Source: Verrucomicrobiaceae bacterium (lineage in GTDB: Bacteria; Pseudomonadota; Gammaproteobacteria; Pseudomonadales; CAMLJR01). From it: a stretch of 64,000 nt of DNA. Shown piece after piece: positions 2,638-8,169 of this stretch (positions are counted from its first letter, which is position 1; each line of letters begins with the position of its first letter). The notes beneath the pieces were generated by a model. It saw nothing but the letters and a program-made list of their open reading frames with translations. It had not been told where the DNA came from and made no database searches. The stretch spans positions 62,001 through 126,000 of the forward strand of contig JAQGNY010000005.1 of NCBI GenBank assembly GCA_028293825.1. The letters run 5' to 3'. Made by a program: the position numbers and the translations under genes.

Positions 2638-4032
2638 TCAAACGGATTTCTGCGGAGCGCCGCCTTCGGTCAAGCGCTGCGGGTCCAGCAATTGTTGGAG
2701 TGTTTTTTTATCGATATTACTCAGCTCGGCGGCAATTTCAATAATCGGGCGCTGTTCGGCCACCGCGCGCTTCACGATTTTCGCGGCTAATTCGTAGCCC
2801 AGCTCCGGCGCCAGCGCGGTGGCGAGGATCGGATTGCGCGCGGCTGTGGCGGCCAATGCCGCGCGCTGCACGGTGAAATCGGCGATGCCGCCGCGCCCGG
2901 CCAGCGCGATGCAGGCGCGCGCCAAAATGCCGATCATCTGCAGCAAGTTGTCGGCGACCAGCGGTAGCATCACATTCAATTGAAAATTGCCGGATTGGCC
3001 GGCTAGCGCAATCGCGGTATCGAGCCCTACGCAGTGCGTCGCCGCCATCGCACAGGCTTCCGGAATCACCGGGTTGACCTTGCCCGGCATGATGCTGCTG
3101 CCCGGCTGCAGCGCCGCCAGTTGAATTTCGCCAAGACCGCTAAAAGGTCCGCTGTTCATCCAGCGCAAATCGTTGCTGATTTTTATCAGCGCCAGCGCCA
3201 GCGTGCGCAATTGGCCGGAAAACTCCACCGCGCAATCGACGCTGCTCATGCGCTCGAAGCGATTGCGGCAAGGCTGCAGTTCGAGGCCGGTGCTCGCAGC
3301 CAATTGTGCAATGACGCGCGGCGCGAAGATCGGATCGGCGTTGACGCCGGTGCCGACGGCGGTGCCACCGAGCGGCAATTCGCCGAGGTGTTTCGCGCTG
3401 ATCGCTAGGCGTTCACGCGCATTAATAATTTGCTGGCGCCAGCCCGATAATTCCTGATCCATCCGAATCGGCATCGCGTCCATTAAATGCGTGCGCCCGG
3501 TTTTCACTACATCGGCTAATTCGTGTGCGCGGCTTTCAATGACTGCACTGAGTTTTTCGAGTGCGGGATCGAGCAGTTGCTGCCATTGCAATAACGCACT
3601 TAATTGCAATGCGGTGGGAATGACATCGTTGCTGCTTTGGCCGGCGTTGACGTGATCGTTGGGATGCACGCGCTGGCCGCTCAACGCGCTGGCGCGATGC
3701 GCCAACACTTCGTTCACATTCATGTTGGTGCTGGTGCCGGAACCGGTTTGAAAAACATCGATGGGAAATTGATCGGAAAACTGTCCGCTCAACACTTCAT
3801 CGGCGGCGCTTTTAATCGCATCAGCAACGGCGTTGTCTATCGCACCGAGCTCGGCATTAACGCCGGCGGCTACGCGTTTAATTCGGCAAACCGCGTGCAC
3901 AAACACTGTCGGTAAGGCGCGCCCGGCAATCGCGAAATTTTCAATGGCGCGCTGCGTTTGCGCACCGAATAACGCGTCGCCCGGAACGCTGACACTGCCG
4001 AGGCTATCGCTTTCAGTTCTGCTCGTCGTCAT
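2638..4032 (-). CDS. fumC: Class II fumarate hydratase
   Basis: This 464-residue protein interconverts fumarate and L-malate in the TCA cycle. Family markers are GSGTSTNMNVNEV, HPNDHVNAGQSSND, the GTAVGTG loop and the fumarase/aspartase signature GSSIMPGKVNP. Class II enzymes are iron-free homotetramers, useful under oxidative stress or iron limitation. I chose the ATG at 4032 because GGAG lies about seven bases upstream; an ATG at 4047 is also in frame. The gene is divergent from the diguanylate cyclase, sharing a ~160-bp promoter region. Length is normal for the family. Confidence 0.96.
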   Translation of the reverse strand: MTTSRTESDSLGSVSVPGDALFGAQTQRAIENFAIAGRALPTVFVHAVCRIKRVAAGVNAELGAIDNAVADAIKSAADEVLSGQFSDQFPIDVFQTGSGTSTNMNVNEVLAHRASALSGQRVHPNDHVNAGQSSNDVIPTALQLSALLQWQQLLDPALEKLSAVIESRAHELADVVKTGRTHLMDAMPIRMDQELSGWRQQIINARERLAISAKHLGELPLGGTAVGTGVNADPIFAPRVIAQLAASTGLELQPCRNRFERMSSVDCAVEFSGQLRTLALALIKISNDLRWMNSGPFSGLGEIQLAALQPGSSIMPGKVNPVIPEACAMAATHCVGLDTAIALAGQSGNFQLNVMLPLVADNLLQMIGILARACIALAGRGGIADFTVQRAALAATAARNPILATALAPELGYELAAKIVKRAVAEQRPIIEIAAELSNIDKKTLQQLLDPQRLTEGGAPQKSV

Positions 4033-4192
4033 GGACTTGCTCCGCATCGTAGAGGTTGGGCGAGAATAGCACCGAAGATACTCTGCTCAGATCTAACAAC
4101 AGATACTTTCCTCGCATCTAACAACTTCACTATGGTTTTCATTTCGCTCGCTATACTGCAATTTTACGTCTGTGTAATGGAGTTCAATCTTC

Positions 4193-6148
4193 ATGTTCGG
4201 TTGGCTGCAATCGTTGACCAACGATCCCGGTTTTATGCCGCACGGCCATTGCTTTTTGTGGACGCCCGCATTGCTGTGGTTGTATCTGCTCGCCGATGGT
4301 TTGATCGCGGCGGCGTACTTCAGTATTCCGATTGCACTGTGGTATTACGCGCGCCGCCGTCCCGATTTGCCGTATCGCTGGATCGTCCTTTTATTCGGCG
4401 CATTTATCATTGCGTGCGGTGTTACGCACATCATTAAAATTTGGAATATCTGGAATCACGCGTATTGGATTGAGGCGGTATTCGCCTTGATAACGGGCAT
4501 TATTTCGATGGTGTGCGCCATCGTGTTGTGGCCGATTATTCCGCAGGCATTGGCGTTGCCTAGCCATGCGCAGCTGCGCAAAGCACACGACGATTTACTG
4601 CGCCGCCACGAACAACTTACCGAAAGCGAAAACAGTTATCGGCTGCTGATCGAAACCGCCGAAGAGGGCGTTTGGATGCTCGATCGCCACGGCGTTACCA
4701 CGCACTCCAACGACATCATGCAGAAGTTGTTGGGCTGCCCAGGGGCGTTGCTTGGGCACAGCGTGCTGGAGTTTGTGTTCGAAGAAGACCGCGCTATCGC
4801 GCAGGAAAATTTGCAGCGGCGGATGCTGGGTGTCGCCAATAAATACCAATTCAGTTTGCGCCGCGTCGACGGTGGCCGTGTGCATGTATTGGTGTCGTCG
4901 GCACCGGCGTTAAGCCGCGATGGTGAAGTCACCGGCATTCTCGCGCTGGTCACCGACGTCACCGAGTTAATTGGCATCCGCCATGAATTGCAGCAGCTCA
5001 ACCGGCAGCTGGAAGCACGCGTCGAAGAGCGCACCCGCGCGTTGGAACTGAGCAACAGTGAGTTGGCGCGCGAAGTCGTCGTGCGCGAATACACGCAGCA
5101 GGAATTGCGTGAAAGCAACGAGCGCTTGAATCGATACCTGCGCGAGTTGGAGCGTCACAACGAGGACAACACCCGTCTCAATTTACTCAGCGATCAATTG
5201 CATTGCTGCGACAGCCACGCCGAATTACAGAAAGTACTGGAGCGCAGCTGTAGCGAAGTGTTCGGCAGCGAAGGCGGCGCGCTGTTGCAGTGGTGCGATG
5301 ACGAGCTGTGTCTGCTCGGCGCACCGTGGGGCGCAGGTGTCGGTCAGAACTGGCAATTGGTCGCGGCGGCGCAACTGGCGCTCAAACGCGGCCGGCTGTT
5401 CCCGGCGTTTATCGAAGAGCAGGGCCAAGCCAGCGCGAATGTTTTTCAGGGCAATTGGCAGTTGCTGTGCGCGCCGTTGCAATCGCGCGGCAGCAGTATC
5501 GGCGTGCTGGCGCAGTTGCGCTCGACGCCGTTTTGGACCGGCGATTCGATTGCCGACGATAAGCTTGAACAAATGCTGCGCGCGATGGCCGATCACACCG
5601 CGCTGGCGCTGAATAATCTGAGCCTGCGCGAACAATTGCGCGAGCAGTCGCTGAGCGATCCGCTGACCGGGCTCTATAACCGACGTTTTATGTATCAGCA
5701 GATGGACCGGCTGGTGTCGCTGTGGGAGCGCAACAATCAGCCGTTTGCGCTGATCCTGCTCGATGTCGATCATTTCAAATCGGTTAACGATCGCTTCGGC
5801 CACGACGTTGGCGATGAAGTGTTGGTTTGTCTCGCCGATATGTTGGGTCATCAGGTGCGGCGCAGCGATGTCGCCTGCCGCATGGGCGGTGAAGAATTCG
5901 TCGTATTAATGGGCGGCGCCGAGCAGAAGCAGGCGCTGGAGCGGGCCGAAGCGATTCGCCTTGCGATCGCGACTATGCGCGTGGTGGGCGCCGGCGACAG
6001 TCAAATTACGGTGTCCGCCGGGGTGGCGTTATATCCCCAGCACGGCGATGACGCCTACATGTTGCTGCGCGCGGCAGATCGCGCGTTGTATGAGAGCAAA
6101 AATCAGGGCCGCGACCGCATCACGCTGGCCTCGCGCGACGTGCCGTGA
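4193..6148 (+). CDS. Diguanylate cyclase with ETR1-like ethylene-binding N-terminus (EBD-PAS-GAF-GGDEF)
   Basis: The 651-residue protein begins with three membrane helices (about residues 20-110) that resemble the ethylene-binding domain of plant ETR1. The ETR1 ligand and copper residues D25, Y32, I35, P36, I62, C65 and H69 have equivalents here at D35, Y42, I45, P46, I72, C75 and H79 with identical spacing. A PAS domain (~145-265), a coiled coil with heptad-like charged repeats (~265-320), a GAF-like domain (~325-470) and a GGDEF domain (~480-645) follow. The active site is GGEEF (565-569), and an RxxD inhibitory site (RRSD, 556-559) lies five residues upstream, so the cyclase should be active and feedback-inhibited. 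It is expected in the inner membrane. Ethylene sensing is inferred from residue conservation only. Confidence 0.93.
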   Translation: MFGWLQSLTNDPGFMPHGHCFLWTPALLWLYLLADGLIAAAYFSIPIALWYYARRRPDLPYRWIVLLFGAFIIACGVTHIIKIWNIWNHAYWIEAVFALITGIISMVCAIVLWPIIPQALALPSHAQLRKAHDDLLRRHEQLTESENSYRLLIETAEEGVWMLDRHGVTTHSNDIMQKLLGCPGALLGHSVLEFVFEEDRAIAQENLQRRMLGVANKYQFSLRRVDGGRVHVLVSSAPALSRDGEVTGILALVTDVTELIGIRHELQQLNRQLEARVEERTRALELSNSELAREVVVREYTQQELRESNERLNRYLRELERHNEDNTRLNLLSDQLHCCDSHAELQKVLERSCSEVFGSEGGALLQWCDDELCLLGAPWGAGVGQNWQLVAAAQLALKRGRLFPAFIEEQGQASANVFQGNWQLLCAPLQSRGSSIGVLAQLRSTPFWTGDSIADDKLEQMLRAMADHTALALNNLSLREQLREQSLSDPLTGLYNRRFMYQQMDRLVSLWERNNQPFALILLDVDHFKSVNDRFGHDVGDEVLVCLADMLGHQVRRSDVACRMGGEEFVVLMGGAEQKQALERAEAIRLAIATMRVVGAGDSQITVSAGVALYPQHGDDAYMLLRAADRALYESKNQGRDRITLASRDVP

Positions 6149-6167
6149 GCTGCGCCAAATCGCGGGC

Positions 6168-6194
6168 AAAAAAAAAGCACCTCGGAAGGTGCTT
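6168..6194 (-). terminator. Rho-independent terminator pointing to the minus strand
   Basis: On the minus strand an 8-bp perfect stem (AAGCACCT / AGGTGCTT, 4-base loop) is followed by a run of nine T. On the plus strand the hairpin is not followed by T, so it does not look like the end of the upstream diguanylate cyclase. No minus-strand protein gene reads into it, which suggests an unannotated minus-strand transcript. Confidence 0.6.
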
Positions 6195-6240
6195 AGGCGC
6201 TGTTCAACTGGAGAGACCTGAATGGATAACAGCATGTACG
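6168..6240 (-). ncRNA. Candidate small RNA ending at the minus-strand terminator
   Basis: A strong terminator (6168-6194) on the minus strand has no protein gene feeding it. A weak promoter-like pair lies upstream on that strand: TTTATT (complement of 6264-6269) and TATGCT (complement of 6242-6247), 16 bases apart. This would give a transcript of about 70 nt with a U-rich 3' end, as in Hfq-dependent sRNAs. The promoter match is poor, and no known sRNA family was recognised. Confidence 0.2.
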
Positions 6241-6352
6241 AAGCATAGACACGGCTAGCGCTAAATAAATCCGTAAATGCCCGTATGGCCTGGTTTTTCG
6301 TTAGAGGTGTCGTCTAATAGAAAGGTTTATGGCCCTGTTTTTTAGGGTTGAT

Positions 6353-6384
6353 TAGTCAGCAGAAAATGGAATGCTGACTATAAT
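6353..6384 (+). promoter_or_regulatory. Putative fimV promoter -10 with overlapping 9-bp palindrome
   Basis: TATAAT lies at 6379-6384, about 58 bases before the fimV ATG. Directly upstream is a perfect inverted repeat, TAGTCAGCA (6353-6361) and TGCTGACTA (6372-6380), separated by 10 bases, whose right arm runs into the -10 box. No good -35 is visible at 17 bp, as expected for an activator- or repressor-controlled promoter. The regulator is unknown. Confidence 0.45.
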
Positions 6385-6441
6385 CTTGTGAACCAGTTCC
6401 CCATTCCCAACCTATCGGCGCCTCTGACCGAAGGAGTTTCC

Positions 6442-8169
6442 ATGACATCACATCGTCGCAAATTGCTGCCGCTCTGCGTTGCGCTTGCCTTGCTTAGCGG
6501 TCACGCCGGCGCCGTTGGATTGGGAGAAATCCAGCTAAGTTCATATCTCGGCAAGCCGTTGCAGGCTGAAATCGCGCTCAACGATATGGGCGATTTAAGC
6601 AGCGACCAGCTGAAGGTTCGTATCGGCAGTGAAGCCGATTATCAGGCGCTGGGCGTTGAGCATACTTATTTGCACAGCCAGCTGAAGCTCGAACCGTTTG
6701 TGCGCAACGGCCACGGCTATGTGCGTATCAGCACGCGTGAACCGATCAGCGAGCCGTTTCTTAATTTCGTGCTGACGCTGCAATGGCCGAAAGGGCAGGT
6801 GGTGCGCGAATTTACCGTATTGCTCGATCCGGCTCCCGTATCTGCAGTTGCAGCTGTACCCAGCGCGATAGCGCCGACATCGGCTTTTGCCGCCAGCGAA
6901 TCCACTGCCGAACCGCGCGAAATGGCCGCGACCGCACCGGTAGCTAAAGAGCACGCTCGTCATCGCCCCGTCCGCTCCCAGCCAAGCATCCCGGCAAGCG
7001 AAGCGAATGTTGAGTTGACGGCCGCCCACGATGCGTATGTCGTGCAGCGCGGTGACAGCCTGTGGCGGATTGCTTCCAAACTGCGCCCCAGCGGCGTGTC
7101 GTTGGAGCAAACGATGAGTGCTATCGCTGCCCGTAATCCTGATGCATTTATCAATGGCGATCACGGCAAGCTGAAAGAAGCCGCGCAGATTATCGCGCCG
7201 AGTGCAGCTGAAATAGCTGGCGGCGCTCCGGCAGTTGCGCCGACGCGCGCAGTTGCCAGCGCACCTGCAACCTCCAGCGCGAAGATCGATGGAGCGGCTG
7301 TTGCGAGTGCGCCACTGGCAGAAGAAAATGCATCGCTTAAAGCCCAGGTTAGCGATTTGTCCGGCAATGTCGCCGCGTTGAATCAATCGTTGGCCGAGTC
7401 ACAAGAGCGCTTGCGCACAATGGAGACGCAGCTCGACAACGTGCTGCAGCAGTTTCAACAACAGCGTGCCACGATTGCCGCGCTCAGCAATGGCGGTGAA
7501 ACACCGGCTGCGAATACTAATGCTGTAGTGCCGGTGGGCGGATCGATGATTAGTCACGTCAGCGCGGCGGAATTGCGACCCACGCCAGTCGCGCGCATGC
7601 CGTGGTGGATGCATTTGGTTTATTGGCTGGGCATTGGCGCCGCTGTTACCTGGGCGATCCGTGAACACTTCTGGCCGCAGCGCCGTCTGGCTCTGGTCGG
7701 CGTCGGCAGCGAGGACGGTTTTCCCATGGCCGCGCGCGGCAGCGTGGCACCGGTTGCCGTGCGCGAGTCCCGCACCGTAGTTGAATCGACTAGTTGGCAA
7801 CACGATTCGATCGACGACATCGTCGCCGCCGAACCGAGCGACGACGAAATGGTCATGACATCGGTGCCGGCAAGCGAGCCGGCTCCATCGCTGGAACGCC
7901 ATGTCGACGATCCGGTCGATGCCAGCATCAGCGCCGGTGTGTTCGTGGCATTTGGTCGCTTTGATGAGGCCGAGCGCTTGTTGTTGGACGCGTTGAAGCA
8001 AGTGCCAGAACGCACCGATCTGAAACTGCAGTTACTCGATGTGTACATGCAGGCGGATCAGCGCGAAGCGTTTGAAGTGCTAGCGCACGAGATTGAACAG
8101 GGGCCTACCACGCCGGAAGTTATCGCCGAGCTGGCGGTGCTGCGCGACGGTTATCGGTCGCATCTGTAA
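6442..8169 (+). CDS. fimV: FimV-type polar/peptidoglycan-binding assembly protein
   Basis: The 575-residue protein starts at ATG 6442 with AAGGAG seven bases upstream (an in-frame start at 6388 has no such site). A signal peptide (ending AGA-VGLGEI) is followed by the FimV N-terminal domain (GLGEIQLSSYLGKPLQAEI), a LysM domain (YVVQRGDSLWRIASKL), an Ala/Pro-rich linker, a coiled coil (ENASLKAQVSDLSGNVAALN), one membrane helix (WWMHLVYWLGIGAAVTWAI) and an acidic cytoplasmic tail ending in a TPR-like FimV C-terminal domain (SAGVFVAFGRFDEAERLLL). In Pseudomonas FimV binds peptidoglycan and organises polar type IV pili and cAMP signalling. It is shorter than Pseudomonas FimV (about 900 residues). 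It lies next to two c-di-GMP genes. Confidence 0.9.
   Translation: MTSHRRKLLPLCVALALLSGHAGAVGLGEIQLSSYLGKPLQAEIALNDMGDLSSDQLKVRIGSEADYQALGVEHTYLHSQLKLEPFVRNGHGYVRISTREPISEPFLNFVLTLQWPKGQVVREFTVLLDPAPVSAVAAVPSAIAPTSAFAASESTAEPREMAATAPVAKEHARHRPVRSQPSIPASEANVELTAAHDAYVVQRGDSLWRIASKLRPSGVSLEQTMSAIAARNPDAFINGDHGKLKEAAQIIAPSAAEIAGGAPAVAPTRAVASAPATSSAKIDGAAVASAPLAEENASLKAQVSDLSGNVAALNQSLAESQERLRTMETQLDNVLQQFQQQRATIAALSNGGETPAANTNAVVPVGGSMISHVSAAELRPTPVARMPWWMHLVYWLGIGAAVTWAIREHFWPQRRLALVGVGSEDGFPMAARGSVAPVAVRESRTVVESTSWQHDSIDDIVAAEPSDDEMVMTSVPASEPAPSLERHVDDPVDASISAGVFVAFGRFDEAERLLLDALKQVPERTDLKLQLLDVYMQADQREAFEVLAHEIEQGPTTPEVIAELAVLRDGYRSHL

Follow-up and report, generated by a model that had tools for sequence, protein, structure and literature searches.

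The window analysed here, a stretch of 64,000 nucleotides, carries near its left end a gene for a putative sensor diguanylate cyclase (hereafter the focal protein), transcribed divergently from the fumarase gene fumC and preceded by a GGAG ribosome-binding-like site at 4179-4182. The features of this locus are collected in Table 1. The neighbouring genes encode an EAL protein, MlaC, fumarase C, a FimV-like protein, a LysR regulator, a pirin and a cytochrome b561, with no copper- or ethylene-related gene among them. There were no Rfam matches at 3900-6500, and a promoter scan was set aside, its one match being the chance expectation. The bacterium is rich in c-di-GMP functions, and a further GGDEF-EAL gene ends at window position 1021. 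The 4.3 Mb genome contains a single ethylene-binding domain (EBD) and 34 GGDEF matches, so the focal protein is one among numerous potential c-di-GMP enzymes. ACC deaminase, considered as a marker of plant ethylene, was rejected, the best match in the genome reaching 174 bits where the cut-off is 392. Given the lack of an ACC deaminase over the cut-off, and the ordinary neighbours, the tie to plant, fruit or soil gas that an earlier note on this DNA had drawn is a guess.

Table 1. Features of the focal gene and its divergent neighbour (window coordinates).
Feature	Position	Strand	Basis
fumC (class II fumarase), divergent neighbour of the focal gene	2638..4047	-	synteny conserved with congener
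EBD-PAS-coil-GAF-GGEEF sensor diguanylate cyclase (focal protein)	4193..6148	+	ORF of 651 aa, ATG start
P16-H17-G18-H19-C20 motif preceding TM1, near-invariant in bacterial EBDs	4238..4252	+	conservation count
Ethylene-binding domain (EBD, ETR1_N), three TM helices	4265..4558	+	Pfam, E=1.1e-36; AlphaFold2 model
Helix-1 ligand residues D35, Y42, I45, P46	4295..4330	+	alignment with AzoEtr1 and other bacterial EBDs
Helix-2 residues I72, C75, H79; predicted copper ligands C75/H79	4406..4429	+	alignment
K82, on the C75/H79 face of helix 2; proposed substitute for the lost helix-3 lysine	4436..4438	+	alignment, helical wheel, scan
A98, replacing the near-invariant helix-3 lysine (AtETR1 K91, AzoEtr1 K98)	4484..4486	+	179-EBD alignment
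PAS domain, residues 149-256	4637..4960	+	Pfam, 51.3 bits
Coiled-coil linker, residues ~257-337	4961..5203	+	helices 257-291 and 299-337, full-length model
GAF domain, residues ~342-475, weak in the focal protein	5216..5617	+	Pfam, model, orthologue
GGDEF diguanylate cyclase domain, residues 488-642	5654..6118	+	Pfam, 160.7 bits, E=3e-47
I-site RRSD (556-559) and active site GGEEF (565-569)	5858..5899	+	sequence reading

Residues 27-122 match the Pfam family ETR1_N (PF25487) far beyond chance, at 125.5 bits where the curated cut-off is 27 (E=1.1e-36). Homology of the N-terminus to ETR1-like EBDs, proposed in the earlier note, is on this evidence virtually certain; the profile search, whose failure the note had named as grounds for rejecting its proposal, did not go against it. 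The output named there, PAS-GAF-GGEEF with an intact I-site rather than a kinase, is likewise borne out by Pfam and by the RRSD and GGEEF motifs, with the GAF domain its weak member: the match at 421-473 is sub-threshold (16.9 bits against 22.4), the orthologue in a congener exceeds the cut-off (24.7 bits), and GAF-like secondary structure occupies residues 342-450 of a full-length AlphaFold2 model of low confidence. That model (pTM 0.31, three alignment rows) was used for domain order only, and it runs from PAS strands (159-255) through a coiled coil (257-337), the GAF-like region and a signalling helix (452-487) to the GGDEF fold. Pfam gave no HisKA or HATPase match in the focal protein, which has a GGDEF output instead and falls outside the histidine-kinase receptor class of ETR1, SynEtr1 and AzoEtr1. 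By its domain content it is genuinely an EBD-diguanylate cyclase, of a type already known but in variant form.

The catalytic domain appears complete. Residues 556-569 read RRSD-VACRM-GGEEF, placing the RxxD inhibitory site five residues ahead of GGEEF, and the substrate and metal motifs DPLTGLYNRR, DVDHFK and NxRFGHDVGD are intact (489-541 and 629); of the solved structures, PleD is the nearest in sequence (E=4e-32). Judged from these motifs, the cyclase is very likely active. Degenerate GGDEF proteins do exist, and the focal protein might be catalytically inactive or act as a c-di-GMP receptor through its I-site, but nothing specific to it points in that direction, and, with the active site, the I-site and the motifs for metal and substrate all intact, we regard this as highly improbable.

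In the alignment all seven ethylene-binding residues of ETR1 (D35, Y42, I45, P46, I72, C75 and H79) are present where the earlier note had placed them; that account holds for the seven but overlooked A98, in place of the helix-3 lysine (AtETR1 K91). The motif that precedes TM1 is also kept. Among 91 EBDs retaining C75/H79, and not selected by the motif, H17 occurs in 88 and C20 in 89. Conservation of PHGxC equals that of the copper ligands in bacterial EBDs, and the motif is absent from several EBDs without C75/H79; presumably it is absent from plant ETR1 too. It may form a second metal or copper-transfer site. The probabilities voiced in this text are matters of judgement rather than of calculation; on that footing, copper binding by the focal EBD is somewhat more probable than its absence. 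Ethylene sensing by the protein is plausible, and only plausible, because the helix-3 lysine is lost here and the copper-binding cysteine is lost in the copy of a sister species.

An AlphaFold2 model of the EBD built on a 74-EBD alignment has transmembrane helices at 25-55, 62-87 and 91-120 and a stalk helix from 125 (mean pLDDT 87; block values of 80-96 across residues 21-120). On a helical wheel C75, H79 and K82 share one face of helix 2 (0, 40 and 340 degrees) and D35, Y42 and P46 share one face of helix 1; the helical phase of D35, C75 and H79, which conveys no distances, is compatible with their facing one another. No EBD was found in the PDB by sequence, where the matches were GGDEF relatives and one weak PAS, and Foldseek gave no EBD-like fold there at E<=0.001, as would be expected if no EBD structure has been solved. 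Nor did these sequence and fold searches of the PDB return an experimental structure of a plant-receptor transmembrane domain.

The departure from the usual site lies on helix 3. Position 98 is basic in 167 of 179 EBDs (K in 160, R in 7), and among the 132 that have all seven residues, K/R is missing only in the focal EBD (A98) and in L049 (H98). In AtETR1 the corresponding lysine, K91, has a part in output and is predicted to form a bridge with the ligand aspartate, and an Asp-to-Asn change in ETR1 at the equivalent of D35 lowers affinity about 100-fold (PMC13012798; PMC11819568). As the alignment reads, A98 breaks this conserved Asp-Lys pair, and the focal EBD stands outside the canonical Asp-Lys subtype, a trait that is not among the seven residues.

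A candidate replacement is K82. Lysine at this position is found in one other EBD among the 179, and a blind scan of the transmembrane columns for a basic residue gained upon loss of basic 98 ranked position 82 at the top (5/12 vs 2/167, p=1e-5). The test was repeated without the congener orthologue because the H82 of that row hinges on the alignment, and gave 4/11 vs 2/167 (p=1e-4); both p-values come from few events and are inflated by related sequences. A phylogeny-aware independent-pairs test of 82 against 98 had too few events on the tree to decide. Taken together, there is moderate support for the hypothesis that the lysine moved from position 98 to 82 in the focal EBD. Two EBDs from an apparently methanotrophic order, L098 (genome G342) and L193 (G1292), have N35, H/K82 and D98. 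The Asp-Lys pair appears to be swapped in them, its acid now on helix 3 instead of helix 1 and its base on helix 2 instead of helix 3.

When 84,980 species genomes were scanned with an EBD alignment, at least 552 relatives came up, 80 of which were kept; genomes over the ETR1_N cut-off numbered 12 of 369 class-wide and 28 of 398 phylum-wide. The 179 different EBDs are joined to histidine kinases in 126 cases and to GGDEF or GGDEF-EAL proteins in 25, and any count of GGDEF-only EBDs among them is an upper bound because some loci are incomplete. All seven residues are kept in 18 of the 25. The c-di-GMP fusions are scattered over the EBD tree, with ~10 label changes, at least 2 to 3 of which are forced by well-supported branches. 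Fusion of EBDs to c-di-GMP enzymes is, by this genomic sampling, recurrent in bacteria. The literature searched gave no description of an EBD on a diguanylate cyclase; key reviews lay outside the search, so this is no proof of novelty. The earlier note's remark that direct fusions to a cyclase have been described far less is fair for that literature but does not extend to genomes, where c-di-GMP fusions account for 25 of the 179 sampled EBDs.

Complete, EAL-free EBD-cyclases other than the focal protein and its orthologue are L020 of Amantichitinum ursilacus and L200. The former (811 aa) shares EBD, PAS, GAF and GGEEF with the focal protein, at 45% identity over residues 1-315, but has a second PAS domain (EBD-PAS-PAS-GAF-GGEEF), keeps K98 and has Ala for P46. 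L200, from a methanotroph-order genome, is a stand-alone EBD-diguanylate cyclase of 475 aa (EBD-PAS-GGDEF) with all seven residues; unlike the focal protein it has no GAF domain, its GGDEF and K98 are canonical, and its EBD is distant. On the tree the focal EBD and the Amantichitinum EBD are sisters (support 91 and 95), amid betaproteobacterial EBDs. Since the two proteins also align through EBD-PAS and then GAF-GGEEF, either the EBD stayed with such an output or the gene passed from one lineage to another. An EBD is also joined to c-di-GMP enzymes in proteins of Methylophilaceae, Methylobacter, Noviherbaspirillum and Nostoc, but these carry an additional EAL phosphodiesterase domain.

To our knowledge, the proven bacterial ethylene receptors so far all signal via histidine kinases. 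SynEtr1 (slr1212) of Synechocystis, compared by description only, is a bacterial EBD receptor with PAS and GAF domains like the focal protein, but it is a histidine kinase and its GAF domain binds a bilin chromophore. Plant ETR1 has the seven-residue Cu(I)/ethylene site across three helices, whereas its Lys91 is present and its output consists of GAF, kinase and receiver. The closest proven receptor is AzoEtr1 of Azospirillum brasilense, in which D35, C75 and H79 are numbered as in the focal EBD, identity reaches 40.7% across 99% of that domain, and PAS likewise follows; it differs in keeping the helix-3 K98 and in its output through a histidine kinase and response regulator, its effect on c-di-GMP being indirect. 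The first 130 residues of AzoEtr1, with D35, C75, H79 and K98, bind ethylene when expressed in Pichia, and in A. brasilense ethylene lowers c-di-GMP by an indirect route (PMC11819568).

A syntenic orthologue occurs in G001, the one other genome of the genus examined, where it is divergent from fumC as at the focal locus. It is 44% identical to the focal protein over residues 25-486 and has an intact GGEEF and I-site. Its EBD carries C75S, Y42C, I45L and I72F and lacks the PHGxC motif; position 79 is Leu, and a 3-residue insertion in the alignment would give His there. ETR1_N still scores 55 bits in this altered domain, so a profile match alone is no proof of a copper site. With C75 lost, even congeners do not share the copper/ethylene site, and an orthologue without C75 but with its cyclase indicates that the sensor can be lost while the cyclase stays. 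Nothing else weighs as heavily against a role in ethylene sensing that is conserved across the genus. The congener also has a second, divergent EBD (L009/L112) on a hybrid histidine kinase, which reads D, F, V, P, S, C, H and is without PHGxC.

The main rival to the reading preferred below is an EBD drifting away from ethylene: it may be under relaxed or changed selection in the genus, persisting as an anchor that dimerises in the membrane or as a sensor of Cu(I), with the sensed signals entering via PAS and GAF. The loss of K98 in the focal protein would fit, as would an orthologue that lacks C75, Y42 and PHGxC yet retains PAS, coil, GAF and GGEEF and whose 55-bit match implies that the fold can outlast the site. 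Between the two orthologues the EBD is among the least conserved parts, at 37% identity against 57% for GGDEF (PAS 44%, coil 56%, GAF 42%). However, long-term drift would be expected to cost some of the seven residues and PHGHC, all of which the focal protein keeps, and in comparison with Amantichitinum the focal EBD is the best conserved large domain (54%, against 45% for GGDEF and 41% for PAS). We consider relaxed or changed selection possible, but the less probable course.

The reading preferred here is that of a one-component membrane Cu(I)/ethylene-type sensor cyclase, which we hold to be evenly balanced between right and wrong. It starts from features legible in the sequence (EBD homology, the seven residues, the three helices and the intact GGEEF and I-site). 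The three helices would form an ETR1-type site in which Cu(I) is held by C75 and H79 with D35 alongside, and would bind ethylene or a similar small olefin. Binding would shift helix 3 and the stalk helix, and the signal would run through PAS, coiled coil and GAF to the GGEEF cyclase, whose I-site would restrain its activity. The residue that balances the charge of D35 has probably shifted from helix 3 (K98, now A98) to helix 2 (K82). Plant receptors and SynEtr1 are turned off by ethylene; by analogy with these, and with c-di-GMP in Azospirillum, ethylene would be expected to lower cyclase output. Whether the output of the focal protein is ethylene-regulated at all could, from its sequence, equally go either way. 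The fuller proposal, of a direct ethylene-to-c-di-GMP enzyme with a rewired site in which the lysine of D35 has been relocated to K82, one turn from the copper ligands, is more tentative and is put forward as a doubtful but specific possibility.

The same site could instead belong to a Cu(I)-dependent sensor whose physiological ligand is not ethylene but another small alkene, an alkyne, CO or copper itself, with K82/A98 tuning affinity or specificity. What the seven residues specify is a Cu(I) site that takes small pi-ligands, and the focal protein alters precisely the Asp-Lys pair that is tied to output (PMC13012798; PMC11819568); bacterial EBDs tested so far nevertheless bind ethylene, which makes a different ligand unlikely.

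EBDs are strikingly common in the order of genome G230, where 41 of 101 genomes exceed the ETR1_N cut-off, against the 12 of 369 class-wide, with up to five copies each. By its neighbouring loci this order is apparently methanotrophic (relatives of Methylobacter and Methylomonas). Since methanotrophs deal with large amounts of copper and have monooxygenases that act on ethylene, the sensing of either in this EBD-rich order is worth study.

An EBD on a cyclase would convert a gas directly into a second messenger within one protein, so that ligand binding and output could both be measured on a single polypeptide and no phosphorelay partner would have to be found. A ready set with which to probe the role of the Asp-Lys pair, a question posed by the plant receptors as well, is provided by the A98/K82 change, the orthologue with its natural C75S and the canonical relative in Amantichitinum. 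If the rewired site is real, a movable Asp-Lys pair, and not a fixed helix-3 contact, would set the output of EBDs.
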